Origin: Afipia sp.
GTDB lineage: Bacteria > Pseudomonadota > Alphaproteobacteria > Rhizobiales > Xanthobacteraceae
Reading direction: 5' to 3'
Assembly (NCBI GenBank): GCA_024508675.1
Contig: JANINQ010000021.1
Span: 62,001-126,000, forward strand
Length of the DNA stretch: 64,000 nucleotides
In this document: positions 15,402 to 52,906 of the stretch, piece by piece
How positions within the stretch are numbered: the first letter of the stretch is position 1
Layout: each line of letters starts with the position of its first letter
The notes under the pieces: generated by a model
Seen by the model: only the letters and a program-made list of their open reading frames with translations
Told to the model about the DNA's origin: nothing
The model's database searches: none
Made by a program: the position numbers and the translations under genes

Positions 15402-15462
15402 TCACTCTAGTTGAGGTCTGTCGACCGTACATATTCAGTCGGCGTCAAGCGCCGGAAGAAAA

Positions 15463-15489
15463 CGGAGGAGAGGTTTGCCCTCTCCTCCG
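15463..15489 (-). terminator. Intrinsic terminator/attenuator between pstS and pstC
   Basis: On the minus strand a perfect 11-base stem (CGGAGGAGAGG, 15489-15479, with 15473-15463) closes a five-base loop and is followed by TTTTCTT. This is a textbook Rho-independent terminator located right after pstS. Partial read-through would give excess binding protein over permease. Confidence 0.85.
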
Positions 15490-15498
15490 GAATATTGC

Positions 15499-21336: not shown

Positions 21337-21383
21337 TCGAAATATCTCATTTCCGGATGCTTCAGGCCACAAACGATAACCTC

Positions 21384-25429: not shown

Positions 25430-26026
25430 TTAGCCGGTGGGTGAATCGGCGTAAGCGGTCTTCCAGCCCCACATGCCTGAGCCGTAGCCGCGCTTCATCA
25501 CGCGCTCCTTGTAGATTTCGGCAATAATAGCTCCGTCGCCCGCGAGCAGCGACTTGGTCGAGCACATCTCGGCGCAAATCGGCAGCTTGCCCTGGGCGAG
25601 ACGGTTGGCGCCGTACTTGGCGTATTCAGCCGGCGAATTGTCAGCCTCCGGGCCGCCCGCACAATAGGTGCACTTGTCCATTTTGCCGCGCGAGCCGAAG
25701 TTTCCGACTTTCGGATATTGAGGCGCGCCGAAAGGACATGCGTAGAAGCAATATCCGCATCCGATGCAGAGATCCTTCGAATGGAGCACCACGCCGTCTG
25801 CCGTGGTGTAGAAGCACGACACCGGACAGACCGCCGCGCAGGGTGCGTCGGTACAGTGCATGCAGGCCATCGACACTGAACGCTCACCGGGCTTGCCGTC
25901 ATTGATCGTGACGACGCGGCGGCGGTTGATGCCCCACGGCACTTCATGCTCGTTCTTGCAGGCGGTTACGCAGGCGTTGCACTCGATGCAACGATCGGCA
26001 TCACAAAGAAATTTGACGCGAGCCAT
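25430..26026 (-). CDS. fdoH: Formate dehydrogenase iron-sulfur (beta) subunit, FdoH-like
   Basis: The 198-residue protein carries cysteine groups for four [4Fe-4S] clusters: CDADRCIECNACVTACK, CMHCTDAPCAAVC, CIGCGYCFYACPFG and a split group with KCTYC. It is shorter than E. coli FdoH and lacks the C-terminal membrane helix, so attachment relies on FdoI. It transfers electrons from FdoG to the cytochrome b. It sits 14 bases after fdoG. Confidence 0.92.
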   Translation of the reverse strand: MARVKFLCDADRCIECNACVTACKNEHEVPWGINRRRVVTINDGKPGERSVSMACMHCTDAPCAAVCPVSCFYTTADGVVLHSKDLCIGCGYCFYACPFGAPQYPKVGNFGSRGKMDKCTYCAGGPEADNSPAEYAKYGANRLAQGKLPICAEMCSTKSLLAGDGAIIAEIYKERVMKRGYGSGMWGWKTAYADSPTG

Positions 26027-26040: not shown

Positions 26041-29007
26041 TCACGCCGACTGAATCTGGCACAGGGTCGCCTTGCCCTCGTGCATGCCTGTCACCGGGTC
26101 GTAGCCATAACTGGTGATCGTGTTCACGCTTTCGCCGAGAACGATCGGGTCCGCGCCCTTCGGATACTTGGAGCGTTGATCGACGCCCTGGAACCATCCG
26201 GAGAAGTGGAAGGGCATGAACGCAACGCCCTTGCCGACGCGGTCGGTCACAAGCGCCTTGACGCGCGCCTTCGATCCGTTTTCCGGACCGAACACCCAGA
26301 CCCATCCACCGTCCTTGATGCCGCGCTCGGCGGCATCTGCCGTATTCACCTCGACGAACATGTCCTGCTGCAATTCGGCAAGCCAGCGGTTGGAGCGCGT
26401 TTCTTCGCCGCCGCCCTCATATTCGACGAGACGTCCGGACGTGAGGATAATCGGGAATTGCTTGGCAAGCCCCTTGTCCACCGCCGCTTTCTGAATCGAA
26501 AAGCCGAGGTTGGCCATGCGGAATTGACGTCCATCGGGGCGCGTCGGATATTTGGAAACGAGTTCAGGACGCGGCGTATAGATGGGCTCGCGATGCACGG
26601 GCACCGGGTCTGGCAGATTCCACGCCACCGCACGCGCCTTGCCGTTGCCATAGGCCATCACGCCATGCTCCAGCGTGACGCGAATGATGCCGCCGGACAG
26701 ATCGACAGCCCAGCCCACGCCGTCCGGATTATTGCCGCCGATCTTGTTGATGGTGGCCAGTTCGGCCTCTGTCAGATCCTTGTCCCAACCGAGCTTCTTC
26801 AGGACACCATAAGTGAACTCAGGATAACCGTCGGTCAGTTCGGAACCTTTGCTGTAAGAGCCTTCGGCAAGAAGATTTACGTTCTTCACCGAGCCGTCTG
26901 GCTGCTTTTCTTCGTACACCACACCGAAGCGTGCGCGGAACGTGCCGCCACCGTCCTTGGCGTGCAGATTGGTGTTGTAGAGCGTATGGGTGCCCGGGTG
27001 CTTGATCTGAGGTGTGCCCCAACACGGCCAGGGCAGACCGTAATAGTCGCCGCCGATTTCGGGTTCGTCCGTTTTCGCGCGCAACGTCACGAGATCGAAC
27101 TTGCCCTGATTTCTCATATGCGCCTTGAGGCGCTCGGGCGACTGACCGGAGTATCCCGTCGAGAAGCCGCCGCGGTTAATTTCGCGAAGAATGTCTTCAG
27201 GCACCGGACGATTGTTCTCGACCTTGATGTTCTTGAACATCGGATCGGCAAAGCCGAGCTTTGTCGAAAGCCGGTAGATGATTTCGTAATCGTCCTTGGA
27301 TTCGAAGATCGGCTTGACGACCTGTTCACCCCACTGCAGCGAGCGGTTGGATGCGGTGCGCGAGCCGGAAGTCTCAAACTGCGTACAAGCCGGCAGAAGA
27401 TAGGTGCCGTTCTTGCGCTCGGAGATTGCAGCGAATGTCGTTGGATGCGGGTCCGCGACCACAAGCAGTTCGAGTGCTTCGAGGCCCTTCACCATTTCCG
27501 TCATGCGCGGGATGGTGTTGCCGCCATGCCCCATGATCACAACGCCCTTCACGGTGTCGCGTTGATCGACATCATCCGGCTTGGCGAGTGTCGCATCGAA
27601 CCAGCGTGTCCATGGAATGCCCGGCAGCTCCATGTTCTGCTTGCGCGTGCGGGCTGGACGCCCGGCCTTCGCCGGGACTTCGTCAAAGCGCGATTGCAGG
27701 TAGTCGTATTCGACTTCCCACACACGCGCCCAATGTTTCCACGCGCCTTCAACGAGGCCGTAGTAGAGCGGCAGTGATGTAATATCGAGACCGATATCGG
27801 TCGCGCCCTGCACATTGCAGTGGCCGCGGAAGATGTTCGCGCCTCCTCCGAACACACCGACATTGCCGGTTGCGAGCAGGAGATTGCAGTAAGCCCGGAC
27901 GTTGGCTGTACCGACCGTGTGCTGCGTGCCGCCCATGCACCAGATGAATGTCGCCGGACGAACCTTTGCGAAGGTCTCGGCGATCTTCTTCACCTGCTCG
28001 CCGGGAATGCCGGTGACACGCTCGACCTCATCCGGCGTCCATTTCGCCACTTCGGCGCGAATCTGGTCCATGCCGTAGACGCGCTGCTTGATATATTCCT
28101 TGTCTTCCCAGCCGTTGGCGAAGATGTGATGGAGCATGCCCCAGATCACGGCGATGTCGGTGCCGGAGCGGAAGCGCACGTATTCCGTCGCATGTGCTGC
28201 GGTACGCGTGAAGCGCGGATCGAGTACGAAGACGTTGGCCCGATTGATCTCCTTGCCCGTCAGAATGTGCTGGAGCGAAACCGGATGCGCCTCGGCGGCA
28301 TTCGACCCCATGAAAACAATGGTCTTGGAATTGCGGATGTCGTTGTAGGAGTTCGTCATCGCGCCGTAGCCCCAGGTGTTTGCAACACCTGCGACCGTGG
28401 TCGAGTGACAAATGCGAGCCTGATGGTCGATCGAGTTCGTCCCCCAGAACGCAGCAAACTTGCGGAACAGGTATCCGCCTTCGTTGGAGAACTTCGCCGA
28501 TCCCAACAGATAGACCGAGTCAGCGCCCGACTTGGCGCGAATCTCGAGCATCTTGTCGCCGATCTCGTTGATGGCCTGATCCCAGGCGATCTTCTGCCAT
28601 TCGCCGTTGACCAGCTTCATCGGATATTTCAGCCGGCGGTCGCCATGCACGAGTTCGCGCACCGATGCGCCCTTGGCACAATGCGATCCGCGATTGATCG
28701 GACTGTCCCATGCAGGCTCCTGACCAACCCAGACACCGTTCTGCACTTCGGCGATCACCGTACAGCCCACCGAACAGTGGGTGCATACGTTCTTTTTAAT
28801 CTCAGTCGGCGCACCGACAATCTTCGGACCCGCCTGCGCCTTGCGCACAGATCCAAGAGGCATCAGCCCAACAGCGGCCCCCGCACCTGCAACGAGGCCA
28901 GAGCGACGCAGAAACGTGCGGCGGTCAAGAACACCGGAAGCCAGGCTAGCGGCGATACCCTGCAAACGCGCGCGGCTGGCGGTTCCCTCTTTTCGCTTGA
29001 TCAGCAT
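26041..29007 (-). CDS. fdoG: Formate dehydrogenase major (alpha) subunit, Tat-exported, cysteine-type
   Basis: The 988-residue protein starts with a Tat signal (DRRTFLRRSGL at residues 28-38, followed by a hydrophobic Ala/Gly stretch). The bis-MGD oxidoreductase follows, with a [4Fe-4S] site C75, C78, C82, C110. The active site is C200-H201 in ARICHS, where selenium enzymes have Sec; the codon here is an ordinary cysteine and the gene has no in-frame stop. The C-terminal domain holds VNTADAAERGIKDG. It oxidises formate in the periplasm and gives electrons to FdoH. Genes for export, chaperoning and cofactor sulfuration surround it. Confidence 0.94.
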   Translation of the reverse strand: MLIKRKEGTASRARLQGIAASLASGVLDRRTFLRRSGLVAGAGAAVGLMPLGSVRKAQAGPKIVGAPTEIKKNVCTHCSVGCTVIAEVQNGVWVGQEPAWDSPINRGSHCAKGASVRELVHGDRRLKYPMKLVNGEWQKIAWDQAINEIGDKMLEIRAKSGADSVYLLGSAKFSNEGGYLFRKFAAFWGTNSIDHQARICHSTTVAGVANTWGYGAMTNSYNDIRNSKTIVFMGSNAAEAHPVSLQHILTGKEINRANVFVLDPRFTRTAAHATEYVRFRSGTDIAVIWGMLHHIFANGWEDKEYIKQRVYGMDQIRAEVAKWTPDEVERVTGIPGEQVKKIAETFAKVRPATFIWCMGGTQHTVGTANVRAYCNLLLATGNVGVFGGGANIFRGHCNVQGATDIGLDITSLPLYYGLVEGAWKHWARVWEVEYDYLQSRFDEVPAKAGRPARTRKQNMELPGIPWTRWFDATLAKPDDVDQRDTVKGVVIMGHGGNTIPRMTEMVKGLEALELLVVADPHPTTFAAISERKNGTYLLPACTQFETSGSRTASNRSLQWGEQVVKPIFESKDDYEIIYRLSTKLGFADPMFKNIKVENNRPVPEDILREINRGGFSTGYSGQSPERLKAHMRNQGKFDLVTLRAKTDEPEIGGDYYGLPWPCWGTPQIKHPGTHTLYNTNLHAKDGGGTFRARFGVVYEEKQPDGSVKNVNLLAEGSYSKGSELTDGYPEFTYGVLKKLGWDKDLTEAELATINKIGGNNPDGVGWAVDLSGGIIRVTLEHGVMAYGNGKARAVAWNLPDPVPVHREPIYTPRPELVSKYPTRPDGRQFRMANLGFSIQKAAVDKGLAKQFPIILTSGRLVEYEGGGEETRSNRWLAELQQDMFVEVNTADAAERGIKDGGWVWVFGPENGSKARVKALVTDRVGKGVAFMPFHFSGWFQGVDQRSKYPKGADPIVLGESVNTITSYGYDPVTGMHEGKATLCQIQSA

Positions 29008-29020: not shown

Positions 29021-29245
29021 TCAGTAACGGTTGACGCGATAGTAGTTTTTGACGTCGGCTGAATTGGCGTCGTAACGAGCCTTCACACGCTCAGCCTGCG
29101 ACTCGTCTGCAGCGGCTTCAGTGGCCAGCGGCACAGCGGTTGCAGCCGCCGCAACGGCCGATCCGCCCATCATGAAGAAGCGGCGGCGATCGAGTCCCTT
29201 CGCATCCTTAGCTACGGATACTTCCTTCTTGGACGGCTTGCTCAT
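29021..29245 (-). CDS. Small Tat-signal protein of the formate dehydrogenase operon
   Basis: The 74-residue protein has a twin-arginine signal (LDRRRFFMMGGSAVAAAA) after a charged N-terminus and a short mature part rich in charged residues ending KNYYRVNRY. The ATG at 29245 is preceded by GGAAGGAG. Proteins of this kind are known from formate dehydrogenase operons of many proteobacteria as a region-specific Tat target of unknown role. It lies 13 bases before fdoG and may act as a Tat-exported partner or assembly factor. Confidence 0.85.
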   Translation of the reverse strand: MSKPSKKEVSVAKDAKGLDRRRFFMMGGSAVAAAATAVPLATEAAADESQAERVKARYDANSADVKNYYRVNRY

Positions 29246-29286
29246 CGCGGTCTCCTTCCAGTCAATTTCCGAAGTCGGCGTTCGCA

Positions 29287-30075
29287 TCACTCGGACAGCG
29301 TGAATGCTTCTGATTCCAGTTCCATGAAGATGCGGCCCACCCGGCCGACAGCGCTGTAGAACGTGGCTGATCGCGAGACTTCGAGATCGGCAAACATCCG
29401 CGCCGCCCACGGCTTGAGGTGGCGCTCGAAGAAACGCGTCTGCGCCGCGAAGTCCGTCGCGAATTCGCCTCGCGCAAGGCCCGCCATCACTTCGAGCAGA
29501 ATTGCGATGTGATCTTCCGGTTCACGCCCAAGACCCGTGCGCTCGATTCCCAGCGCGTCGAAATCTTCGCGGACACGTGCAAGAGGCCGCTCGTGCAGGA
29601 AGCCGGTCAGGTAATAGGAGGCATAGGGCAGTAATTCCCCCCGCCCCAATCCGATAAACAGATCGAAAAACTCCCTGGCGATTGCCCGCTCGCTCAGCTC
29701 TGCGGCGGCAGAAGCCAGTTCGATATGCGCCATTCCAAGTTCGGACGCATCGCCCTTGAGCGTCGCAATTCTCGACAAGACATCCGCCGTGGGTGCTTTG
29801 CCAAGAAGCAGCGACAACAAACCGTACTCGGCAGCGCGCAGCCGATCGACTTCGTCGATATCCAATTTTGCTGACCTGTCATCTTCGGCTGATCCATACA
29901 GGTCGGGGCGCAAAACGAAGCGCGGGACCTGCGTCAGCGTTTCAACGGCAAGAACTCTTTCAGCCGGAATGCGCGACCATGCTGAAACGGAGGGCTGAGC
30001 GATTCCAATCGCGCGCGCCAGGGAGGCGACACCGCCTGCAGCCTTGATGGCCTGCTCTAATCCCGCGTCTCGCAT
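29287..30075 (-). CDS. HTH (YdaS/Cro-like) domain fused to TorD-family chaperone
   Basis: The 262-residue protein has two parts. Residues about 3-60 form a Cro/YdaS-type helix-turn-helix (QAIKAAGGVASLARAIGIAQPSVSAW). Residues about 75-260 match the TorD/DmsD all-helical chaperone of Tat-exported molybdoenzymes, including LPYASYYLTGFLHERPL and EPEDHIAILLEVMAGL. It probably binds the FdoG signal peptide during cofactor insertion. The DNA-binding half suggests it also senses apo-enzyme and controls the operon, which is inference. The ATG at 30075 is chosen because the frame extending to 30108 uses a TTG with no family sequence. A near-perfect dyad lies at 30125-30143. Confidence 0.82.
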   Translation of the reverse strand: MRDAGLEQAIKAAGGVASLARAIGIAQPSVSAWSRIPAERVLAVETLTQVPRFVLRPDLYGSAEDDRSAKLDIDEVDRLRAAEYGLLSLLLGKAPTADVLSRIATLKGDASELGMAHIELASAAAELSERAIAREFFDLFIGLGRGELLPYASYYLTGFLHERPLARVREDFDALGIERTGLGREPEDHIAILLEVMAGLARGEFATDFAAQTRFFERHLKPWAARMFADLEVSRSATFYSAVGRVGRIFMELESEAFTLSE

Positions 30076-30124
30076 GGTCCGAACCGAGTTCCGCCACTGG
30101 TGCCTCAAAACGGGGCACCTGCCT

Positions 30125-30143
30125 AACTGGAATTATTCTAGTT
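30125..30143. promoter_or_regulatory. Candidate operator upstream of the HTH-TorD gene
   Basis: The plus strand reads AACTGGAAT-T-ATTCTAGTT, an inverted repeat with 8 of 9 arm positions matching, 50-68 bases before the HTH-TorD start. The core GAATTATTC recurs at 21402-21410 and 24344-24352. It is a natural candidate for autoregulation by the HTH domain. Confidence 0.45.
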
Positions 30144-30154
30144 CCAATTAGTAA

Positions 30155-30171
30155 CATAGGTTCGTCCTATG
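30155..30171 (-). repeat. Small hairpin after the DUF3306 gene
   Basis: CATAGG-TTCGT-CCTATG forms a perfect six-base stem 17 bases after the DUF3306 stop on the minus strand. It lacks a T run. It may mark the boundary between the upstream accessory genes and the HTH-TorD/fdoGHI transcript. Confidence 0.4.
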
Positions 30172-30187
30172 CCTCAAAAACTTTTGT

Positions 30188-30883
30188 CTAAACCCTTGGT
30201 TTTGCAGTGCCATGTCGTCGCACCCTTTGCTGCGACGCAATCGAATCCTTCGCATCCGCGTGCTGCGAAGCGACCGCGCTATCGGGAACTTCGCTTTCAG
30301 CAATCCCCGATTTTGCTGAAGTTATGTGCTCCGAGAGTCTGGTCGTCTCGCGCGGAAGGTCTTCTGCCGAATCCTGCGATGCAACATTTTGGGGAGATCT
30401 ATCGTCGGGATCTGAAATATCTTCGTGTCGTTCCGATGTGTTCACGGCCCGTGAATCGGCATCGGTCGAATCGCGGCCCATGATCTGCCGGACCATATTC
30501 GCAATATCGGTACCCGGCGCGATTTCGCCGCCTCCGGGCACACCGCCCGGCGTGTTCCAGTCGTACGCGTAGTCCAGCGCCGGATTGACGTAATTGCGGA
30601 TTGCAGGATCGAGCGCCCAGAACTTCTGCAAGGCCGCATTACGAAGACTCTCGGGCACGCCCTTGCGGAGAAAACCGGCGATGTCGGTGGTCTCAGTGAT
30701 TTCTTCGATGCCGGGCAAGCTCGACAGATCGAACGGCTCTTCAACGTCGCTGGTCGTCGTTGCAGGCGAAGCTTCCAAACCTTCGATCGTTGTTTCCGGC
30801 GCTTCGTCCTTCGGCAACGCAGCTTCGCGCTTGCGCTGCGACCAGCGAGACAGAAAGCCTTTCCCGTCGTCCGGTCCACTCAT
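30188..30883 (-). CDS. DUF3306 domain protein
   Basis: The 231-residue protein matches DUF3306: FLSRWSQRKREA at the start, then an acidic stretch, then SLPGIEEITETTDIAGFLRKGVPESLRNAALQKFWALDPAIRNYV and a DWNTPGG segment. The C-terminal third is low-complexity and charged, probably disordered. No enzymatic motif is seen. It overlaps the DUF3305 gene by four bases. DUF3305 and DUF3306 genes co-occur with membrane formate dehydrogenases; a maturation or assembly role is inferred from that context. Confidence 0.85.
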   Translation of the reverse strand: MSGPDDGKGFLSRWSQRKREAALPKDEAPETTIEGLEASPATTTSDVEEPFDLSSLPGIEEITETTDIAGFLRKGVPESLRNAALQKFWALDPAIRNYVNPALDYAYDWNTPGGVPGGGEIAPGTDIANMVRQIMGRDSTDADSRAVNTSERHEDISDPDDRSPQNVASQDSAEDLPRETTRLSEHITSAKSGIAESEVPDSAVASQHADAKDSIASQQRVRRHGTAKPRV

Positions 30884-31389
30884 GCGCTGTCCTCCTGATC
30901 GGCGGATCTGTCATCGCCGCGCTTGCGGTCGACATTCGCGCGATCGCGCATGCGCTTGTGGAACACGCGTTCGACATGGAATTCGTCGACAAATGCCGCG
31001 ATCCACGAGGCGAGGTCTGGCGGCATCGGAACGGTCCCGATAACATCAACGCCACTTTCGAACATCGCCTCACCTTCCGTCGGATCGGCAGTGACTTTCG
31101 TAAGTTCAAGCTCGTCGCCGCCATCCAGACGCCGCAGCGCGACCCAAATCCGGGGCGCACCGTCGGCGAGATTGTCACGGTAGTTGGCCGTTTCGCTGCC
31201 GAACAAATCAATCGTTGCCGCGCCAGCGTAATACAGCGTCTCATCGGCCTCCCGCGACAACACGGTCCATGGCGCTGTCGCAGGCACCTCAGGGAGAATT
31301 GTCACCGGTGACCACATGTGATCCACCCATGGGTTGTCGATGGCCCTCCGGCGGAGTACGACGCCAACCTGACGAGATATCTCGGTCAC
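30880..31389 (-). CDS. DUF3305 domain protein
   Basis: The 169-residue protein has the DUF3305 pattern: VGVVLRRRAIDNPWVDHMWSPVTILPE, ADETLYYAGAATIDLFGSETANYRDNL, PRIWVALRR and a basic HKRMRDRANVDRKRGDD tail. It uses a GTG start with GGGAGG seven bases upstream. Function is unknown. It is translationally coupled to DUF3306 and lies in the formate dehydrogenase accessory run. Confidence 0.85.
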   Translation of the reverse strand: MTEISRQVGVVLRRRAIDNPWVDHMWSPVTILPEVPATAPWTVLSREADETLYYAGAATIDLFGSETANYRDNLADGAPRIWVALRRLDGGDELELTKVTADPTEGEAMFESGVDVIGTVPMPPDLASWIAAFVDEFHVERVFHKRMRDRANVDRKRGDDRSADQEDSA

Positions 31390-31413
31390 TGGAGATCCTC
31401 CCGTTACAACCCG

Positions 31414-32433
31414 TCACGCCACGCTGGCGGCGGAAGTGAGCGGCAATCCCGCCACCAGATTCTGCGGCTTCAGGCGCACGATCTTGTCCGCGTCCATCGC
31501 CAGAATGAGATAAACGGGCTTGTCGCCGACGCGTTCATCCACAAAGCGCAAATCCTCGAACGTCATCCGCATCAGCGCCACAATCCGCTCAGCGGCATTG
31601 CCGCCCGGCGTCTCGCCGTTCCACAGGGCATTCCCGATCCGGGTCCCCTCACTGTCGAGACCGACAAACCAGCGCCAATCGCGATCCTCGATCGAGGCAA
31701 CCGGCTCTACCTTCACCGCAGCTCCAAGCAAATGAACCACCCAGCGCTCAATCACGCGGCAGAAAGCTTCGCGCGCCTTCGCATTCCCGCCGAGATTCAA
31801 AACCATCGCATGGGCGTCTGACTGCGACCAATACGTCCAGGCATTGTCATCATCCATCACATCCATCTCGCCGAACGCCTGCGGATGGAGCATGGCCGTC
31901 AGGGGCGAAGCATGAAGATCGTGCTGCGCCTGTTGCTGTGCCTCGACGACTTCCGCATCGGCAAGTAGCAGCACGCCGTCGTGAATTGCAGCCTTCTGGC
32001 TGCGATAGAACAATTCCGCTGCACGCAGCATGAATGGATCATCGCACCCCTCAAGCGCATTGCGGAGAATCAGATGGCATAGCTGCGAAAGGAAGATCGG
32101 CGGAAAATCACCGGCACCCTTCCGCGCCAGCATCGTGTAAACGGCTTCCAGCGACGGCGCACCGACCAAACGGTCGCGAAATGCCATCATGAAGGTCCAG
32201 TTCTCGCGAGCATCGGCATCGGCAATTGCCGCGATTTCCCGTTTCGAAACCGGACGAAGCGGATCGGCCAATAGGGCCGCATGCAGGTTGCGCTCGGCCT
32301 CGCAGGCATCGTCCGGCGGCATCAACTCGGGGCGCGCGAGATACGCCATGATGAGTTCAGGTGTCGCAACCAGACCGCCGTGATCGCCGCGGCGCGTAAG
32401 ATGATGGCCCGAAGCGACCCAGAATTCTCTCAT
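31414..32433 (-). CDS. DUF6352-like protein of the formate dehydrogenase accessory cluster
   Basis: The 339-residue protein begins MREFWVASGHHLTRR and is predicted soluble with a helical N-terminal half (ELIMAYLARPELMPPDDACEAE, LCHLILRNALEG). I assign it to the DUF6352 type from memory of similar clusters, not from a search. No cofactor motif is obvious. It starts in an ATGA overlap with the preceding gene. A role in formate dehydrogenase maturation is suggested only by context. Confidence 0.65.
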   Translation of the reverse strand: MREFWVASGHHLTRRGDHGGLVATPELIMAYLARPELMPPDDACEAERNLHAALLADPLRPVSKREIAAIADADARENWTFMMAFRDRLVGAPSLEAVYTMLARKGAGDFPPIFLSQLCHLILRNALEGCDDPFMLRAAELFYRSQKAAIHDGVLLLADAEVVEAQQQAQHDLHASPLTAMLHPQAFGEMDVMDDDNAWTYWSQSDAHAMVLNLGGNAKAREAFCRVIERWVVHLLGAAVKVEPVASIEDRDWRWFVGLDSEGTRIGNALWNGETPGGNAAERIVALMRMTFEDLRFVDERVGDKPVYLILAMDADKIVRLKPQNLVAGLPLTSAASVA

Positions 32434-32987
32434 GTCCGATCTGCCTTCGTCAGTCCCAGAAGATCAACTTCCTCGACCGGTTCATCGCCCTCGACCTCAT
32501 GAAAGGTAAAGGCCGGCGCATGGGCATGCAAACGGTCCTGCCCCGCTTCAACACTGCGCGGCCTCAGGGTCCGGAAGCGTTCGCGGATTTCACCATCCTC
32601 AACACTGCGGTGCACGGCCAGCAATGTCTGAAGCGGATGATCGCAAAGCGAGGCCGCAAAGCCGACCTCTTCCACAGCCGCAGCTCGCGCCGCGTCGACA
32701 TCCGGCGCGCCAAACTTCGACATCAACTGCTCTGCCAGCCGCGCGATGACTTGCTCCCGTTCCGCCTCGCTTGCTTCCGTGACCACCGCCAGCGTCGACC
32801 AGCCAAGACTTTCGATTCCGAGAAAACCGGACCGCAGCGCAACCCGCTGCTTCTGTCCGAACGCGGCAGGGTCGCTGTCCCAGAACACAAACCCACCGGA
32901 CACAGCCCATTCGCCGGGTTCGGCAGCCCGTTCGAATACAAAAGTATCCGACGGATCGAGCCTGATGGTGCGCGGCAATTTTAGCAT
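32430..32987 (-). CDS. DUF6505-like protein of the formate dehydrogenase accessory cluster
   Basis: The 185-residue soluble protein begins MLKLPRTIRLDPSDTFVFERAAEPGEWAVSG and has a beta-rich N-terminal half. A helical middle follows (EREQVIARLAEQLMSKFGAP). The family name is from memory. The ATG at 32987 has GAGG five bases upstream and follows the previous stop by seven bases; the longer frame to 33059 runs back into that gene. Function is unknown. Confidence 0.65.
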   Translation of the reverse strand: MLKLPRTIRLDPSDTFVFERAAEPGEWAVSGGFVFWDSDPAAFGQKQRVALRSGFLGIESLGWSTLAVVTEASEAEREQVIARLAEQLMSKFGAPDVDAARAAAVEEVGFAASLCDHPLQTLLAVHRSVEDGEIRERFRTLRPRSVEAGQDRLHAHAPAFTFHEVEGDEPVEEVDLLGLTKADRT

Positions 32988-32994
32988 ATCCGCC

Positions 32995-33750
32995 TCACAC
33001 GAGCCTCGGTGCGCGGTATTCCGGATCATACCATGCGACCTTCCGAAGTGAATCGACAAAGCTGGTCCGCAGCGGCGGGGCTTTCGCTTCAGACTGGGTC
33101 AGTAGGTCGCCATTGAGATCGACGCCGCGCCGTTGGCCGGCTTTTCCGCCGGAAAGCCGTGCCAGATAATCTCGCGCGACCGGATCAAAACCGCGTTCAC
33201 TCCACGAATCGAATGCGGTCATCAGATGACGCGCAAAGCTGCCGACGATCGCCTCGGTCTCCACCATTTCGAAACCTTCCCTGAGCAAGGTGACGCTGCC
33301 TGCGGCAACACTTTCGTCGATATGCGCCATGTCAGCCGCGCGCAGGATGACGCCAAACACCAGCCATCCCGGAATCTCGTCCTCATTGCAGTCTTCAGGC
33401 CAGCCGAGCCGCCCCCCACCCAGCAATCCGCCATCAAACATGATTGAATCCGGCCACGCAAAACCAACTTGGCGCTCCGGAGGACAATGCGCCGCAATGG
33501 CATCCGCGGTGGCGTTCATTCCGGCAAAAAAGGCCCTGCGTGCGGACTGCAGCGGTTCATCGGGTTCGAGGACAACGGCAAACTCGACCAGATCGTATCG
33601 ACGAACCCAGACCAGAGTTCCTGCCCCGGCTTCCGCGGCGATGCCGCAGCCGTGTGCAAATGCATCTCCATACTCCCGAAGCGGCACCAGCGTATAACCG
33701 GGCGGCAGGTCGAGTTGTTGTTCCCCCGGAGCAATACGCCGAACCATCAT
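32995..33750 (-). CDS. Biotin/lipoate-ligase-like protein with DUF4444-type C-terminus
   Basis: The 251-residue protein resembles the biotin/lipoate A/B ligase family found in formate dehydrogenase clusters (LPPGYTLVPLREYGDAFAHGCGIAAEAGAGTLVWVRRYDLVEFAVVLEP). A short C-terminal domain of DUF4444 type follows (RGVDLNGDLL). I do not see the GRGR-type adenylate-binding motif of true biotin ligases, so it may have lost ligase activity or bind another ligand. It is the first gene of a five-gene minus-strand run ending with DUF3306. It is divergent from the ferredoxin gene at 33898. Confidence 0.7.
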   Translation of the reverse strand: MMVRRIAPGEQQLDLPPGYTLVPLREYGDAFAHGCGIAAEAGAGTLVWVRRYDLVEFAVVLEPDEPLQSARRAFFAGMNATADAIAAHCPPERQVGFAWPDSIMFDGGLLGGGRLGWPEDCNEDEIPGWLVFGVILRAADMAHIDESVAAGSVTLLREGFEMVETEAIVGSFARHLMTAFDSWSERGFDPVARDYLARLSGGKAGQRRGVDLNGDLLTQSEAKAPPLRTSFVDSLRKVAWYDPEYRAPRLV

Positions 33751-33897
33751 CGTAGAAAAATTCCCTAAGCTCTTTGTATTTGGGCAGTCTATGCTATCCC
33801 GGTCAAGGCGGAGTCCTGCTTGCGCAAGCGGTCATCGCCGCACCATATGATTGAGCAGCCGCTCTGAGCAGACGCCAAAGGGTGAAAGTCGCAGATC
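33751..33897. promoter_or_regulatory. Divergent promoter region of the formate dehydrogenase accessory genes
   Basis: These 147 bases separate the ligase-like gene (minus) from the ferredoxin gene (plus), so promoters in both directions are expected here. The sequence GGAATTTTTCTA on the minus strand (33764-33753) is close to the GGAATTATTC core seen at three other points, but it overlaps the ribosome binding site of the minus gene. No clear sigma-54 element is visible. Confidence 0.45.
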
Positions 33898-35937
33898 ATG
33901 AATAGCGCTCGGTCCCGCCTTCTGGTTTGCAGTTGCGAAATGACCATGCCGCTCGACATGCAAGCCATTGGACGCGGTTGCACGGCATCAACGACGCAGG
34001 CCAATCAGCTTTGTGGGCTCGATCTTGCGCAATTCAAGTCAGCCCTCGCTGGCGGCGATCCGATCACCGTCGCCTGCACGCAAGAAGCTCCGCTGTTCAA
34101 GGAAGTGGCGGAAGATTTCCCTGACACGCCTCTGACCTTCGTCAATATCCGTGAAACAGGCGGATGGTCCAGGGACGCTGCTGCAGCAGGGCCGAAAACG
34201 GCGGCTCTCATCGCGGCTGCGTCAGAGGACATGCCTCCGATTTCATTGGTGACGCTGGAAAGCAACGGCGTCGCACTGATCTACGGTCACGACGAGGTTG
34301 CCATCGATGCAGCCAGACGTCTCGCAGATCGTCTCGACATCACCGTCATCCTCACCCGGCCCGGCGACATTACGCCGCGGACGATCAACGAATTTCCAGT
34401 GCTCAAGGGCACGATCCGCAATGCGCGCGGGTATCTCGGGAATTTCGAACTCGCCATCGACGATTATGCTCTGCCCTCGCCGTCCTCGCGAAGCAAGCTT
34501 GTATTCGGTGCCCCGCGCAATGGCGCAACATCGACCTGTGATCTCATTCTCGATCTCAGCGGCGGGCTACCCTTGTTTCCCGCACATGAGTTGCGGCCCG
34601 GCTACCTGCGTGCCGATCCGCGCGACCGTGCCGCCATCGAGCGCGTGATTGCGGATGCCAGCAACCTTGTCGGCACGTTCGACAAGCCACGATTTATTCG
34701 CTTCGAGGAATCGCTATGCGCGCATTCGCGCTCGAATATCACCGGCTGCACCCGCTGCCTCGACCTCTGCCCGAGCGGGGCGATTACGCCGAACGGCAAT
34801 GCCGTCTCCGTCGATCCATATGTCTGTGCAGGGTGTGGATCGTGTGCATCCGCATGTCCTACGGGCGCTGCGTCTTACGCGCTGCCCGACAGCGACGCGC
34901 TGATGCGCCGCCTGCGAACGCTGCTGCAAACCTATCGCACCACCGGTGGCGAGCATGCGACCGTTCTGTTTCACGACGGCGATCACGGTGAACCGCTGAT
35001 CGATGCGCTCGCCAGATTTGGCGAGGGCCTGCCCGCCAACGTCCTTCCGGTGCGCGTAAATGAAATCACACAACTCGGACCAGAAACTCTTACGGCGGTT
35101 TTCGCCTACGGCGGAACAGGCGTCGCGCTGCTGATGCGCGCGCAGCCCCGGCATGAGACAGCCGGTCTCCGCCGCGCCGCCGACATGTCAAACATCATCG
35201 TCGCCGCTCTCGGCTTTGGAAGCGAAATTATCCGGATATTGGAAACGGACGATCCGGACCAATTGCGCCTGATGCTGGATGCGATGCCGGCAGGCGTCAT
35301 CTCCCCGAACCCGGCTAACTTCATCCCGCGTGGCGCAAAACGCGGCGTTCTCGAAACGACATTCCGTGAGCTGCATCTGGCGGCTCCGTCTCCTGTCGAC
35401 GTAGTTTCGCTTGCAAGCGGCGCACCCTTCGGCAGCGTGGAGCTGAACGTCGAAAGCTGCACGCTCTGCCATGCCTGCGTCACAGCCTGCCCCACTCAAG
35501 CGCTTTCCGACAATCCGGATCGCGCGATGCTGCGATTCACGGAAAGCCTTTGCGTTCAGTGCGGACTGTGCGAGGCAACCTGTCCGGAGGACGCGATCGC
35601 CCTGAAACCCCAGCTCGATTTCCGGGCATGGAGCGCTCCGCAACGGGTGCTGAAGGAGGAAGAACCATTCCACTGCATCGCCTGCGGCACGCCATTCGGC
35701 ACCCGAAGCTCGATCGAACGCGTACTCGCCAAACTGCAGGAGAAGCACTGGATGTTCGAAGGCGCCAATGCCCGGCGGCTTGACGTCATCAAGATGTGCG
35801 CCGACTGCCGCGTCGAAGCCGCTGTGAATGAGAGCTTCGATCCGCATGCTGCCCCAAAACGCCCTCCAATCATGTCCACGGAGGATTACCTGCGGGCGCG
35901 CGAGCAAAAGAAAAACGATCCGTTTGGATCACAATAA
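33898..35937 (+). CDS. Multi-cluster 4Fe-4S ferredoxin-type protein
   Basis: The 679-residue protein carries two separate double-cluster ferredoxin modules. One lies around residues 273-325 (CTRCLDLCP, CAGCGSCASACP) and one around 520-565 (CTLCHACVTACP, CVQCGLCEATCP). Extra cysteines occur at the N-terminus (C11, C13, C28, C39) and in C-terminal CIACG and CADC motifs near residues 592 and 634, giving possible further metal sites. It is predicted cytoplasmic. Upstream of Mrp, fdhD and mobA, it likely supplies electrons or clusters for formate dehydrogenase maturation, or carries electrons from the enzyme; both are inference. Confidence 0.85.
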   Translation: MNSARSRLLVCSCEMTMPLDMQAIGRGCTASTTQANQLCGLDLAQFKSALAGGDPITVACTQEAPLFKEVAEDFPDTPLTFVNIRETGGWSRDAAAAGPKTAALIAAASEDMPPISLVTLESNGVALIYGHDEVAIDAARRLADRLDITVILTRPGDITPRTINEFPVLKGTIRNARGYLGNFELAIDDYALPSPSSRSKLVFGAPRNGATSTCDLILDLSGGLPLFPAHELRPGYLRADPRDRAAIERVIADASNLVGTFDKPRFIRFEESLCAHSRSNITGCTRCLDLCPSGAITPNGNAVSVDPYVCAGCGSCASACPTGAASYALPDSDALMRRLRTLLQTYRTTGGEHATVLFHDGDHGEPLIDALARFGEGLPANVLPVRVNEITQLGPETLTAVFAYGGTGVALLMRAQPRHETAGLRRAADMSNIIVAALGFGSEIIRILETDDPDQLRLMLDAMPAGVISPNPANFIPRGAKRGVLETTFRELHLAAPSPVDVVSLASGAPFGSVELNVESCTLCHACVTACPTQALSDNPDRAMLRFTESLCVQCGLCEATCPEDAIALKPQLDFRAWSAPQRVLKEEEPFHCIACGTPFGTRSSIERVLAKLQEKHWMFEGANARRLDVIKMCADCRVEAAVNESFDPHAAPKRPPIMSTEDYLRAREQKKNDPFGSQ

Positions 35938-35976
35938 ATTCGCGCGTCATCACATCTGATCGGTCAGGAGATTTAG

Positions 35977-36828
35977 TTGTCAGTCAATCACGCCGCTCCG
36001 GGCGCGCCAGCAACATCGAAAGGTTCGGGCATTCCGGGCGTGAAACATGTGGTCGCCGTCGCCTCCGGTAAAGGCGGCGTCGGCAAGTCGACCACCTCGT
36101 GCAATCTCGCCCTTGGCTTCGCGGCATCGGGACTGAAAGTCGGCATCCTTGACGCAGATATTTATGGCCCCTCGCAGCAGAAACTGTTTGGTCTGCGCGG
36201 CAAGCCGCGCATGCTGGGCCCTCGACTGCTTGAACCACTCGAACGGTTCGGAATCAAGGTGATGTCGATCGGGTTTCTGGTTGAGGAAAACAACGCCATG
36301 ATCTGGCGCGGGGCAATGGTGATCTCCGCCATTACGCAGATGCTGCGCGAGGTCGCCTGGAACGATCTCGACATCCTCGTGGTCGACCTGCCGCCGGGCA
36401 CTGGCGACGCGCAGCTCACCATGGCACAACAAACACCGCTTGCCGGTGCCGTGATCGTCTCCACACCTCAGGATCTTGCGCTGATCGACGCGCAACGCGG
36501 CATTGAGATGTTCAGGAAGGTCAACGTGCCAATTCTGGGCCTGATCGAGAACATGTCCAGCTTCTGCTGTCCCGCATGCAACCACATCACGCCGATTTTC
36601 GGCCATGGCGGCGCGCGAGACGAAGCAGAGCGGCGCGGCATTCCTTTCCTCGGTGAAATCCCGCTCGACATATCGATCCGCGAGACATCAGACGATGGCC
36701 GCCCGATCGTTGCGACCGATCCCGACAGCGTTCATGCCCGACGCTATATCGCCATCGCGCGGCAGCTCTGGCAATCCATCACCACCGGCGCCGCGACCAA
36801 GCCCGCTCCGCGCATTGTGATCGAGTAA
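35977..36828 (+). CDS. Mrp/NBP35-type Fe-S carrier ATPase
   Basis: The 283-residue P-loop ATPase has a deviant Walker A (GKGGVGKST at residues 31-39), DADIYGPSQ, VDLPPGTGDAQL and a C-terminal C-P-A-C pair in SSFCCPACNH, the cluster-binding cysteines of the Mrp/ApbC/NBP35 family. It starts at a TTG, with AGGAG six bases upstream. It lacks the N-terminal MIP18-like domain of the housekeeping Mrp. Its place between a ferredoxin and fdhD suggests a dedicated Fe-S carrier for formate dehydrogenase. Confidence 0.9.
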   Translation: MSVNHAAPGAPATSKGSGIPGVKHVVAVASGKGGVGKSTTSCNLALGFAASGLKVGILDADIYGPSQQKLFGLRGKPRMLGPRLLEPLERFGIKVMSIGFLVEENNAMIWRGAMVISAITQMLREVAWNDLDILVVDLPPGTGDAQLTMAQQTPLAGAVIVSTPQDLALIDAQRGIEMFRKVNVPILGLIENMSSFCCPACNHITPIFGHGGARDEAERRGIPFLGEIPLDISIRETSDDGRPIVATDPDSVHARRYIAIARQLWQSITTGAATKPAPRIVIE

Positions 36829-36831
36829 GCC

Positions 36832-37755
36832 ATGACGGGCACGACACAAACGCACCCAGCCTTGACGTCGGAGCAAAGCAAGCAAGCTGATCTGCCACGC
36901 GTGATGCCGGACCCGCATAATCCACGCCTGACCGAACGCGTCATGGGTATCGACCAGACCGGAGCGCCGGTCGAAATCAGTGTTCCGGTCGAACGTCCGC
37001 TCACGCTTTATCTGAACTCGCAGGAGATCGTCACGATGATGACGATCAACGATTATCCGGAGTATCTGGCCCTCGGCTACCTGCTCAACCAGAACATGCT
37101 CAAGACGGATGATGTCGTGACCGAGGTTGTCTACGACGACGACCTTCAGGTCGTTGTCGTTTACACCGAGCGCGGCACCAACTTCGAGGAAAAGCTCAAG
37201 AAGAAAACGCTTACATCCGGATGTGCCCAAGGCACCGCATTCGGCGATCTGATGGAAGCGATCGAAGGTGTTTCGCTGCCGGACGCCGAACTGCGCACGT
37301 CATGGCTCTATCAGATGACCCATGCGGTCAACACGGCCCCGTCGCTCTATCTCGAAGCCGGTGCGATCCATGGCTGCGTGCTGTGCCGGCAGGGCGAACC
37401 GATCTGCTACATGGAGGATGTCGGCCGGCACAATGCTGTCGACAAGATCGCGGGCTGGGCATGGCAGCACAAGGTCGATGTTGCCGACATGATCATGTAT
37501 ACGACCGGACGCCTCACATCAGAGATGGTCATCAAGACGGTGCGAATGGGTATTCCTATTCTGGTGTCGCGCTCCGGGTTCACGGCATGGGGGGTCCAGC
37601 TCGCCCGCCAGGTCGGCCTCACTCTGGTCGGCCGGACCAAGGGCAAGCGCTTTATTGCACTGTCCGGCCAGGAGCGGATCGTCTTCGACCAGAGTCTCGA
37701 ATTCGTTGCCGAAGAATCTGCACGTCATCGGCGCAAGGGCAGCAGCGATGACTGA
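36832..37755 (+). CDS. fdhD: Formate dehydrogenase accessory sulfurtransferase FdhD
   Basis: The 307-residue protein matches Fdh[30 protein letters not shown], the persulfide cysteine in [11 protein letters not shown] near residue 130, [14 protein letters not shown] and [12 protein letters not shown]. FdhD moves sulfur from a desulfurase to the bis-MGD cofactor, required for formate dehydrogenase activity. The N-terminal 50 residues are an extension rich in polar residues. It is three bases after the Mrp gene and overlaps mobA by eight bases. Confidence 0.95.
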
Positions 37756-38374
37756 CGAAAGACCAACCACGCTTGGCGTACTTCTGGCAGGTGGATTGGC
37801 GCGGCGCATGGGCGGCGGTGACAAGCCCATGAAGACTATCGCTGGCCGCACGATTCTCGAACGCGTCATCGAACGGCTTAAACCGCAGTGCGACCAGATC
37901 ATCCTCAACGCCAACGGCAATGCGTCACGCTTTGCATCATTCGGACTGCCGGTTGTTGCGGATACAATTGAGGGATTTGCAGGCCCCCTCGCCGGCGTGC
38001 TGACGGCTCTCGACTGGACCGCCGCGCATAGACCGGATGTCGAATGGGTGCTGAGTACCGCGACAGACTGCCCGTTCCTGCCGCATGATCTGGTCGCGCG
38101 TTTGCAGCATGCGCGGATCAGCAAAGGCGCACAGCTTGCCGTTGCTGCATCCGGCGATCAGGTTCATCCGGTCATCGGCCTTTGGAACGTCGCCTTGCGC
38201 GAGGATTTGCGTCATGCGCTGGTTGTCGAGGACATGCGCAAGATCGACCGCTGGACCGCGCGCTACAAGCTGGCGACAGTGACTTGGCCGGACAAGCCGA
38301 TTGATCCCTTCTTCAATGCCAACACGATTGAAGATCTTGCGGAAGCGGAACGGCTTGTCTCGTTGGATCTCTGA
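37748..38374 (+). CDS. mobA: Molybdenum cofactor guanylyltransferase MobA
   Basis: The 208-residue nucleotidyltransferase has the MobA N-terminal motif [16 protein letters not shown], the DCPFLP metal-binding segment and the C-terminal [10 protein letters not shown]. It adds GMP to molybdopterin to make MGD. It starts within the end of fdhD, showing coupling of cofactor synthesis to formate dehydrogenase maturation. Confidence 0.94.
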
Positions 38375-38384
38375 TCACGAGTAA

Positions 38385-40322
38385 TTATGCCGGCTGAAAG
38401 CCTGCTTGCTCCAGCGATTTCCGAACATCGGCTGATGCGAGAGCATCGAGAAACGCGTGAACCGCCGGGCGCTCCTTTCGCGACGTCACCAGCGCGAAAT
38501 CGTAGTGTTCCTCGGCGACCGGGATAAAGCCGAGACCGGCAGCACTGGCAACCGGCGCGATGGTCATGCCCCAGTCGGCGCGATTTTGCGCGACAGCAGC
38601 AGCAACCGCATTGTGCGACCGCGGCTGATTCCAGTAGCCATCAGGCCGCGCTCCTCCGAGCAATCGATCGATCAGGATGCGCGTCCCGGCACCCTGATTG
38701 CGATTCACCATCAGGCATGAGGGGTCATTGAGCGCGGCCTGGACTGCTTCATCGGCACTTCGCCCCTCAAATCGCCGGTCGCCGGAGCGAAACACGATGC
38801 CTTGCATCCGCCGATAGCCTGGCACCAGTTCAAGACCATCGACAAGAAACGGCGCGTTATAGGTGTTTGTCTTTTCATCAAGCAGATGAATAGGCGCGAG
38901 ATCGCACTCACCCCGCCGCGCCGCCGACAACCCACCGAGGCTTCCCACCGAGATCGAGCGCACCGACATACCCCTTCGAACCAGCGGCTCCGTGACAAGG
39001 TCAAGTCCGGTGCAATGGCTACCCACGATGACAAGATCGGGAACGCGCACATGCGGCGTAAACAAAGTGACGTCCGTTGCCGTCCCCGCCGGCATCTGCT
39101 CCGCGAGAGCATCGATCTTCAGAAACCCGTCCGCCTGAGAAAACGATGTAATCGCACCGGACCCTTTCCCGGTCGGATAGGCGATCAATCCATCATCGCC
39201 CTCGACCAGAGACACCATCACGAATTCCGTCCGACCGAGTTCCGACGCAATCCGCACCGGTACTTTTGCAGTAACCCGCGCATCACTGCGCTGCGGCAGA
39301 CTAGCAAGGCGGCGCAGCACGGGGACAATCATATCGTGGAATGTGAACATCGCGGATGTTGGAAAACCCGGCAGAATGACAACAGGTTTTCCCTCACAAA
39401 CCGCAAGACATAGCGGTTTTCCGGGTTTGAGCGCGACACCATGCGCGATGATACCCGGCTGTCCCAGCCGCGCGACGATGCGATGAGAAACGTCGCCCTC
39501 ACCCTTCGATGTTCCGCCGGAAAGGATCAGCATGTCGCTGCTTGCGAGCGCCTCCCGCATGACACCTTCGAGCTTTTCCTCGTCATCGGGGAATGCGCCG
39601 AGAAAATGCGCGTCACCGCCATTCTCGGCCACCGCTGCCGCAACAATGGCTCCGTTGGTATCGAAGATGCCGGCGGGGCGCAGCGGCTGACCGGGCTGAA
39701 TAAGCTCATCTCCTGTCGAGACGATTGCCACACGTGGCTTTCGCACAACAGAAATTCGAGCCACACCGCAGGCTGCGAGCATGCCGGTCTCGCGCGAACC
39801 GATCAGCGTTCCCTCTCTCAGGACGACTTCGCCGCGGGCGATGTCGGACCCTGCGTAGGACACGAACTGTCCCGGCGCGACCGCGCGCCGGATTTCGATC
39901 GCATCATGTCCTGCGGGCTGCGTATGCTCGACCATCACGACCGCATCGGCTCCGCGCGGAATGGGCCCTCCCGTTGCGATAGGCGTCGCCGTACCTTGGT
40001 TCACGGTTATCAGCGGCGGCGTGCCGCACGCGATCGTCTCGCTGTTCAAAACCACAGAAACCGGAGCGGACTCCCCCGCTGTGGCAAGGTCGGCTGAGCG
40101 AACGGCGAAACCATCGACATTGGAACGGTCGAAAGGCGGAACATCGACCGCCGCCACAACATCCTTCGCCAGAACAAGACCGAGTGCATCGGCCAGCGCG
40201 CGATCTTCCGCAACAAGATCGCGGGGGAACAGCGCAGCCTCGAACCGCGCCAGCGCTTCCTCGCGCGACAGAATCGTCAGAAACTGTTCCTGGCTCACGC
40301 TAGCGCTGATCGGTGGCTTCAT
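38385..40322 (-). CDS. MoeA-like molybdopterin-binding protein fused to a periplasmic-binding-protein-like domain
   Basis: The 645-residue protein has a MoeA domain (about residues 20-420) with DVPPFDRSNVDGFAVRSADL, SYAGSDIARGE, VAIVSTGDELIQPG and ILSGGTSKGEGDVS. A substrate-binding-protein-like domain follows (about 425-645; NRNQGAGTRILIDRLLG, NRADWGMTIAPVA). There is no signal peptide, so the binding domain acts in the cytoplasm. The same module occurs fused to a DNA-binding domain at 44239-45129. It may bind molybdate, tungstate or a cofactor intermediate. It converges on mobA with a 10-base gap. Confidence 0.87.
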   Translation of the reverse strand: MKPPISASVSQEQFLTILSREEALARFEAALFPRDLVAEDRALADALGLVLAKDVVAAVDVPPFDRSNVDGFAVRSADLATAGESAPVSVVLNSETIACGTPPLITVNQGTATPIATGGPIPRGADAVVMVEHTQPAGHDAIEIRRAVAPGQFVSYAGSDIARGEVVLREGTLIGSRETGMLAACGVARISVVRKPRVAIVSTGDELIQPGQPLRPAGIFDTNGAIVAAAVAENGGDAHFLGAFPDDEEKLEGVMREALASSDMLILSGGTSKGEGDVSHRIVARLGQPGIIAHGVALKPGKPLCLAVCEGKPVVILPGFPTSAMFTFHDMIVPVLRRLASLPQRSDARVTAKVPVRIASELGRTEFVMVSLVEGDDGLIAYPTGKGSGAITSFSQADGFLKIDALAEQMPAGTATDVTLFTPHVRVPDLVIVGSHCTGLDLVTEPLVRRGMSVRSISVGSLGGLSAARRGECDLAPIHLLDEKTNTYNAPFLVDGLELVPGYRRMQGIVFRSGDRRFEGRSADEAVQAALNDPSCLMVNRNQGAGTRILIDRLLGGARPDGYWNQPRSHNAVAAAVAQNRADWGMTIAPVASAAGLGFIPVAEEHYDFALVTSRKERPAVHAFLDALASADVRKSLEQAGFQPA

Positions 40323-42717: not shown

Positions 42718-42735
42718 GGCATATCCCTCCACGAG

Positions 42736-49038: not shown

Positions 49039-49045
49039 GAGGTCC

Positions 49046-51806: not shown

Positions 51807-51809
51807 GGC

Positions 51810-52888: not shown

Positions 52889-52906
52889 GTTCGGCTTGTT
52901 GATTTC

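Follow-up and report, generated by a model that had tools for sequence, protein, structure and literature searches.

Some 16 genes, in one block of the 64,000-nucleotide stretch of Afipia sp. DNA analysed here (the window, part of a 4.4-Mb genome), seem to produce a formate dehydrogenase, FdoGHI, that is exported and probably contains tungsten, with a helper set that seems to differ from the one in E. coli. The block, here called the island, is on balance probably an FdhE-independent assembly line for a cysteine (Cys)-type, Tat-exported, membrane-bound and most likely tungsten formate dehydrogenase, in which a fusion of a helix-turn-helix (HTH) domain to the export chaperone TorD would repress its own operon. 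The enzyme class and the chaperone family are known; the alternative assembly set and the regulatory fusion, which was unexpected, are joined to them here. The evidence comes from the distribution of the genes over genomes, from the absence of FdhE matches in the sampled genomes that carry the island, and from an inverted repeat that accompanies the HTH domain.

Distribution of the island

Nine families or proteins were searched for in 200 Pseudomonadota genomes, the present one included. Presence was called at E ≤ 1e-120 for FdoG and at E ≤ 1e-25 for the island's polyferredoxin. Cys-type FdoG, polyferredoxin, DUF3305 and DUF3306 were each found in 22 of the 200 genomes, and the 22 were identical (15 genera, 9 families). 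DUF6505 (15 genomes), DUF6352 (9) and the distinctive form of a biotin/lipoate-ligase-like (BPL-like) protein scoring at least 165 bits (14) were all nested within these 22. Matches to the BPL_LplA_LipB_2 family as a whole were found in 120 of the 200 genomes at E ≤ 0.001. Below the distinctive group the next score was 95.9 (a canonical BirA in genome G016), followed by 58.4; the low-scoring matches were taken as ordinary biotin ligases on a reading of the G016 protein alone.

An earlier note on this DNA had proposed a dedicated assembly system and had named frequent occurrence without a formate dehydrogenase as evidence to the contrary. At the cut-offs used, the 178 sampled genomes that have no Cys-type FdoG yielded no match to DUF3305, DUF3306, DUF6505, DUF6352 or polyferredoxin. 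The dedicated link of these families to Cys-type formate dehydrogenase is thus strongly supported; the assembly role is put forward below as a proposal. In each of the 21 relatives, one 20-kb stretch held both FdoG and a TorD. In G016 the fdoG-DUF3305-DUF3306-TorD group (fdoG at 1.27 Mb) lies about 31 kb from polyferredoxin and far from DUF6352 (1.55 Mb) and DUF6505 (1.65 Mb), with all partners present. Since the partners are scattered there and yet all kept, linkage alone does not explain the co-occurrence. The isolated DUF6505 gene of this genome (L114:6736-7218) lies about 2.5 kb from an open reading frame (ORF; L114:9704-11374) that we take to be a formate-tetrahydrofolate ligase.

Gene neighbourhoods, which the earlier note had suggested comparing, were examined in 80 named loci retrieved through DUF6505, which were the top-ranking ones among at least 551 matches. 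Of these named loci, those of Afipia were closest to the window and those of Bradyrhizobium came next; 46 of the 80 loci were at least 20 kb long. All 46 long loci carried FdoGHI, the small Tat protein, TorD, DUF3305, DUF3306, DUF6352 and polyferredoxin, and 44 of them carried the BPL-like gene. The island gene set is far above chance. Being the top of this longer list and for the most part from Rhizobiales, the 80 loci do not measure breadth, which is measured by the 200-genome sample.

Enzyme class and absence of FdhE

The fdoGHI genes lie at 29007-24347, and the enzyme is not of the E. coli FdoG subfamily. FdoG (26041..29007, minus strand), the catalytic subunit with a Tat signal, scored 318.2 bits against TIGR01553, the model for E. 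coli-type FdnG/FdoG, far under the cut-off of 814.2, and membership of that subfamily was rejected. The sole PDB chain matching at E ≤ 1e-100 was 9vap_A, S. oneidensis FdhA (1219.5 bits over residues 27-987). The iron-sulfur subunit FdoH (25430..26026, minus) matched 9vap_B (320.9 bits), and the cytochrome b subunit FdoI (24347..25357, minus) matched TIGR01583 (165.9 bits, cut-off 115.85). The RICHS motif, with Cys, was present in the window FdoG and in 21 of 21 relatives, without an in-frame TGA for selenocysteine (Sec) at that place. In one metagenome contig (L189:10509-13419) FdoG was split into two ORFs of 505 and 507 amino acids, by a sequencing error or a true break.

E. coli-type Sec-FdnG (E ≤ 1e-80) was found in 22 of the 200 genomes. 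An in-frame TGA was spanned once by 26 of the 27 TIGR01553 rows; the remaining row, without TGA, was a C-terminal fragment. FdhE_N (PF04216) was found in 24 genomes, among them all 22 with Sec-FdnG, and was matched in none of the 22 island genomes, the present one included (22/22 versus 0/22, Fisher 9.5e-13). No Sec-FdnG genome and no FdhE genome was among the 22. In a review, the account of periplasmic formate dehydrogenase operons has fdhE accompanying them systematically (PMC10609526). Within the 200-genome sample the Cys-type exported enzyme class is an exception to this rule. Together, the nested or identical genome sets and the absence of FdhE argue for a separate, FdhE-free set of partners for the Cys-type enzyme.

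HTH-TorD and its putative operator

TorD of the window (29287..30075, minus; 262 amino acids) carries an N-terminal YdaS/Cro HTH (PF15943 57.4 bits, cut-off 30; PF14549 31.9 bits, cut-off 30.2) in front of the TorD domain (PF02613, Nitrate_red_del, 103.8 bits, cut-off 22.2). It had been described as an HTH-TorD chaperone. Both domains were above cut-off. Chaperone alone is too narrow a description: a second role as regulator is probable. A gap of 112 bp with two inverted repeats separates its gene from that for DUF3306; both repeats are conserved in an alignment of 26 sequences, mostly from Afipia and Bradyrhizobium. The first, CATAGG-N5-CCTATG with the core ATAG-N7-CTAT (30155..30171, no strand), is the proposed HTH-TorD operator. 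The second, CTGGAATNATTCCAG (30127..30141, no strand, one mismatch), resembles rhizobial iron-responsive Irr/ICE elements; TGGAATNATTCCA occurred in 19 of the 52 loci with HTH defined next.

The operator was examined in the 91 loci with a TorD match out of 101 (21 relatives and the 80 named loci), the window being left out. A locus counted as HTH-positive if its match started no later than residue 20 of the window protein, which gave 52 loci with the HTH and 39 without. In 47 of the 52 loci with HTH, ATAG-N7-CTAT stood no more than 260 bp upstream of torD, as it did in none of the 39 others (mononucleotide-shuffle expectation for the N5-9 site, 0.58 and 0.46, respectively). It remained at 0/39 when the upstream region was widened to 500 bp, and not even a one-mismatch form was found upstream of the 39 HTH-less torD genes. 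Outside the discovery set the site was present in 22 of 27 HTH loci. When TorD sequences were clustered by a purpose-made 4-letter-word procedure, the site occurred in 15 of 19 HTH-TorD clusters and 0 of 23 others, ranking first of 3,840 spaced palindromes; the runners-up by difference reached 6 versus 0, and the highest other count was 7/19 with 2/23. With the discovery cluster removed the site was kept in 14 of 18 clusters, with 7 for the next palindrome.

ATAG-N7-CTAT occurred 55 times in the 1,665,523 bp of the loci. The exact extended form, CATAGSN5SCTATG, occurred once in the 4.4-Mb genome, at the proposed operator, which fits a single-target autoregulator. In the window no copy of ATAG-N7-CTAT was found besides the one before torD. 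Since the genes from the BPL-like one to DUF3306 and the polyferredoxin-Mrp-fdhD-mobA string have no site, chaperone control would extend to the structural operon only. In a tree of FdoG (76 rows with an FdoG match of at least 900 residues) the HTH changed six times and the site five times.

The operator could belong to some other regulator, with the HTH of TorD a leftover or only a protein-contact domain. This is unlikely. It draws on the second conserved inverted repeat, which suggests another regulator at the torD promoter, and on the FdoG tree, which yields only three informative pairs. Against it, the site accompanies the HTH in most clusters and is absent where TorD has no HTH; no separate ORF matching the HTH at E ≤ 1 was found in the 39 HTH-less loci; the exact extended site is unique in the genome; and the arm changes in L125 and L136 are matched on both sides of the repeat. 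To the proposal that HTH-TorD itself acts at this site a wider claim can be attached: that a chaperone for Tat proofreading has turned into a transcription factor, binding ATAG-N7-CTAT at its own promoter and reporting uncharged formate dehydrogenase by its occupancy with apo-FdoG, within an FdhE-free, tungsten-directed system whose DUF3305/DUF3306/HdrA-like core is obligate for the enzyme class. The chances of this wider claim are put at about even.

Metal

FdoGHI is likely to contain tungsten, though not in every member of the class, because the nearest solved enzyme is Cys-W, MoeA has Arg/Ala residues and TupA is nearby. In a Chem Rev article (a table row and section 2.4.3) S. oneidensis FdhAB (9VAP) is described as a Cys-W, membrane-type, oxygen-tolerant enzyme (PMC13397495). 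The passages on M. extorquens MoeA1 state that R291 and A312 bias insertion toward tungsten (PMC13197769). MoeA of the window (22473..23729, minus) has the pocket residues of this tungstate insertase, with an Arg and an Ala spaced by 21 residues in the equivalent motif. The same pair at the same spacing was seen in 24 of 24 pattern-fitting MoeA matches of at least 200 bits. Of the best MoeA matches in the loci, 43 reached at least 150 bits; 26 of these fitted a looser pattern, all with Arg/Ala, and 17 did not. Fourteen of the 17 were inspected: 11 had no PGN motif and are probably paralogues, those of L175 and L107 had Arg/Ala in a variant motif, and that of L105 had Lys/Ser. MobB (23736..24263, minus; PF03205 165.2 bits) is encoded next to MoeA. 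A TupA-like tungstate-binding protein is encoded at 41875..42732 (minus), and TupA matches of at least 200 bits were found in 17 loci. An excisionase-type HTH joined to the periplasmic-binding-like domain of MoeA-PBP fusions is encoded at 44239-45129, beside the tupA-like gene, and may be an oxyanion-sensing regulator.

Partner proteins

The DUF3305 protein (30880..31389, minus, GTG start; PF11749 126.8 bits) matched only positions 221-372 of NF011058, the NCBI model of a MobA-DUF3305 fusion (80.9 bits, cut-off 820). That such a fusion model exists, and that its DUF3305 part is matched, points to a cofactor step. A confident structure model of the protein (predicted local distance difference test, pLDDT, 91.7) had no PDB match. 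The DUF6352 protein (31414..32433, minus; PF19879 202.7 bits; AlphaFold model pLDDT 90.8) had no PDB match at E ≤ 0.001. DUF3306 is encoded at 30188..30883 (minus; PF11748 66.6 bits) and DUF6505 at 32430..32987 (minus; PF20115 198 bits, scored on a longer ORF).

The BPL-like protein (32995..33750, minus; 251 amino acids; PF16917 174.8 bits) is of the same family as 3bfm (299.6 bits), a solved ‘biotin protein ligase-like protein of unknown function’. The GRGR...G loop and a catalytic Lys are motifs of biotin/lipoate ligases; the Lys position was set here by alignment to BirA. All of the 14 aligned sequences lacked the GRGR loop and had L, R, V, E or S where the Lys would stand. The likeness to biotin/lipoate ligases seen before therefore holds for the fold family only. 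A working ligase was rejected, and by its sequence the protein is a catalytically dead pseudo-ligase.

The small Tat-exported protein (predicted; 29021..29245, minus; 74 amino acids) was read from the sequence. It had no Pfam match and matched TIGR02811, ‘formate dehydrogenase region TAT target’, weakly (21.3 bits on a longer ORF, cut-off 48.45). Equivalents were found in 19 of 21 relatives, 12 by a first pattern and 7 more by a looser one; none was found in L110 with the looser pattern or in L100, which was searched with the stricter pattern only.

The polyferredoxin (33898..35937, plus; 679 amino acids) is HdrA-like. A profile of its N-terminal part (about 270 residues) matched HdrA residues 61-182 (8rvu_a, E 1.5e-5), the sole PDB match below 0.1. 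This part has four invariant cysteines (C6, C8, C34 and C55 in alignment numbering) and is shorter in Shewanella-like and related members (L102, L104, L107). It is followed by two Fer4 pairs, one of which matches the HdrA C-terminus, and by a CxxC...CxxC tail. HdrA has a Gly-rich loop as its flavin adenine dinucleotide (FAD)-binding motif. Compared with HdrA, the polyferredoxin has no such loop (consensus LIYGRDExAIEAA versus VIGGGVAGIQAA in the HdrA chain) and has two further Fer4 clusters and the tail; no other Hdr subunit was among the annotated island genes. The middle of the polyferredoxin (34900-35430) matched 2-phospho-L-lactate guanylyltransferase 6bwg weakly in a profile of relatives (E 8e-4), by chance or through a distant nucleotide-transferase-like domain.

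Downstream are encoded an Mrp/NUBPL-type Fe-S P-loop ATPase (35977..36828, plus; PF10609 330.3 bits), a divergent FdhD (36832..37755, plus) and the guanylyltransferase MobA (37745..38374, plus; PF12804 126.4 bits on the longer ORF 37655-38374). FdhD matched the FdhD-NarQ domain PF02634 (247.7 bits, cut-off 27.2) and fell under both NCBI equivalog cut-offs (135.9 versus 140.9 and 155 versus 269 bits). The usual active-site loop of FdhD is CxxC, which was not seen in the window protein. There the sequence TSGC forms a loop with a single Cys, and elsewhere there is an HGCxxC motif, which was found in 16 of 21 FdhD matches of the loci.

The polyferredoxin and its companions might instead be part of the mature enzyme, or electron partners to it, forming a cytoplasmic route by which electrons of formate are used or supplied. 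HdrA proteins carry electrons; the polyferredoxin has an HdrA-like N-terminus and four cluster sites of the Fer4 type, and it occurs as constantly as FdoG itself; in addition DUF3305 and DUF3306 are called putative membrane proteins in the operon descriptions of Bay et al. (2015; PMC4464133). Yet from the Tat signal of FdoG and from FdoI, a cytochrome b of the membrane, the enzyme is expected on the periplasmic side, and polyferredoxin, DUF3305 and DUF3306 showed no Tat-type start by eye (no signal-peptide program was run). The known neighbours of these proteins are cofactor and chaperone genes, and 9VAP is reported, in the passages on that structure, as an FdhAB dimer without polyferredoxin or DUF partners (PMC13397495). 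An electron-partner role is accordingly held to be improbable. Less probable still is that the associations mark one horizontally moved cassette with passengers of no shared role: most genomes have the genes in a compact block, with DUF6352, DUF6505 and the BPL-like gene absent from part of the genomes, but all 22 of the 22 genomes, from 9 families, have an identical core, gene orders differ, and G016 has it split over several places.

Proposed mechanism

In the assembly line favoured here, tungstate would be supplied by TupA and inserted by the Arg/Ala-type MoeA with MobB. The guanosine monophosphate (GMP) parts would be added by MobA, probably with help from DUF3305, and FdhD would sulfurate and deliver the cofactor. 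Electrons or clusters would come from the HdrA-like polyferredoxin and Mrp; DUF3306, DUF6505, DUF6352 and the dead ligase-like protein may be binding partners of the FdoG precursor. TorD would hold apo-FdoG until it is loaded, and export would then follow, with the small Tat protein. The Cro/YdaS HTH of TorD is predicted to bind ATAG-N7-CTAT upstream of its own gene. An occupied chaperone would mean unfinished enzyme, and a free one finished or absent enzyme. In the simplest circuit, free HTH-TorD dimers would repress torD-tat-fdoGHI. Repression is our inference as to sign; the same site data would fit an activator.

A number of observations weigh against this mechanism. DUF6505 was missing from 7, the BPL-like gene from 8 and DUF6352 from 13 of the 22 FdoG genomes. 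The zero overlap between FdhE and the island is weak by itself (P 0.05); S. oneidensis is reported, in a passage on its formate dehydrogenases, with both fdnGHI and fdhA1/fdhA2 types (PMC12093963), and the part of Bay et al. (2015; PMC4464133) on TorD-fdh species places fdhD/fdhE in trans. Five of the 52 HTH loci were without exact ATAG-N7-CTAT, three of them with a one-mismatch form. The one-mismatch extended site occurred 25 times in the genome against 22 for a reversed control, and being no commoner than the control it shows no wider regulon. The four independent HTH/no-HTH pairs of the FdoG tree were three concordant, none discordant and one neutral (sign test p 0.25, not significant). MoeA of G086 (L105) has Lys/Ser, the molybdenum-type residues, and tungsten may therefore not be universal; TupA of the window scored below its NCBI cut-off (NF041772, 241.7 versus 400 bits). 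The HdrA likeness comes from a profile search, and in single scans only 1 of 20 members matched per HdrA model (E 0.03-0.14). Knockouts of fdh and fdo in C. necator are reported, in the part of the study concerned, without a fitness effect (PMC11540253); either enzyme may or may not be of the Cys type.

Relation to known systems

The combined role of the island genes had been thought undescribed; the association of several of them is already in print. In the operon descriptions of Bay et al. (2015; PMC4464133), TorD/DmsD-fdhGHI operons have DUF3305, DUF3306, fdh tat and fer4 (4Fe-4S) genes in common with the island. The full text of that paper contains neither ‘DUF6352’ nor ‘DUF6505’ nor ‘helix-turn-helix’; of its fdhD/fdhE in trans, the FdhE part does not fit the 22 genomes here. 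In the literature collection searched, no paper named DUF6505 or DUF6352, and no HTH-TorD was described in the titles and abstract openings of the papers listed.

As treated in the review cited above, E. coli FDH-N and FDH-O share with the island FdhD and a Tat-exported three-subunit enzyme, and C. jejuni FdhM is a TorD homologue needed for its formate dehydrogenase (PMC10609526). Differences from the E. coli enzymes are the absence of FdhE from island genomes, Cys in place of Sec, an FdoG far under the FdnG model, and the presence of TorD. The MoeA1-MobB-MobA-FdhD pathway of M. extorquens MeFDH1 is shared in its mobB-moeA pair with R291/A312-type residues, MobA and FdhD, with TupA nearby; MeFDH1 is soluble, and the passages on its pathway do not name DUF genes, TorD or polyferredoxin (PMC13197769). 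S. oneidensis FdhAB (9VAP), the closest solved relative of FdoG and FdoH, shares the Cys ligand and the membrane type; tungsten is reported there and would be expected in the island enzyme, and maturation lies outside section 2.4.3 of the article that describes it (PMC13397495). The deposited name of 3bfm gives no function, and its link to formate dehydrogenase comes from the present work, which thus gives context to an orphan structure and to four DUF families.

Tungsten formate dehydrogenases that tolerate oxygen are sought for the reduction of CO2. Production of tungsten formate dehydrogenase in E. coli is reported to be held back at alpha-subunit production and maturation (PMC13396061). 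The short list of partners that are present in all sampled genomes with the Cys-type exported enzyme, genomes that all lack FdhE, names genes to co-express or delete. HTH-TorD with its defined 15-bp site offers a simple testable case of an export chaperone controlling transcription by its load.

Gene order and other features of the window

Scans of the window ORFs with Pfam and NCBI models confirmed the island as real and the gene calls as right. Every gene that the earlier note had named was present, its ‘two further unknown families’ being DUF6352 and DUF6505, and every named gene with a Pfam family scored over that family's cut-off. On the minus strand, from 33750 down, the order is BPL_LplA_LipB_2, DUF6505, DUF6352, DUF3305, DUF3306, the 112-bp gap, HTH-TorD, small Tat, fdoG, fdoH, fdoI, mobB and moeA. 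On the plus strand, from 33898, it is polyferredoxin, Mrp, fdhD and mobA. Of the two divergent, tightly coupled transcripts proposed before, the divergence is seen, both strings starting at the 33750/33898 gap; the minus string, with its gap and two inverted repeats, is not one tight unit.

Past mobA lie genes for a MoeA-PBP fusion (38385..40322, minus; NF011068 785 bits, cut-off 534), a MoeA-like protein (40332..41567, minus; PF03453 67.5 bits) and the TupA-like protein. A tRNA-Ser(cga) called by ARAGORN at 40200-40276, on the same strand as the MoeA-PBP gene and within its N-terminal coding region, is probably a false positive. Below moeA lies the gene of a small GBBH-like_N protein (21507..21884, minus; PF06155 95 bits), relatives of which were found near fdoI in 14 of the 46 long loci. 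In plant HCF101 this domain is fused to Mrp; with Mrp separate, the window protein may be part of a split Fe-S carrier. It is followed by a second, soluble formate dehydrogenase of the MeFDH1-like fdh1A/fdh1B type in the same stretch as the island (16865..21372, minus). Its alpha subunit matched TIGR01591 (730 bits, cut-off 666), and its beta ORF matched NuoE and NuoF models, both with scores under the cut-offs. The window also holds genes for pyrroloquinoline quinone (pqqE, pqqB), the phosphate regulon (phoB, pstS) and carbon-phosphorus lyase (phnL, phnM), at 7094-10294, 11233-16539 and 48340-59412.

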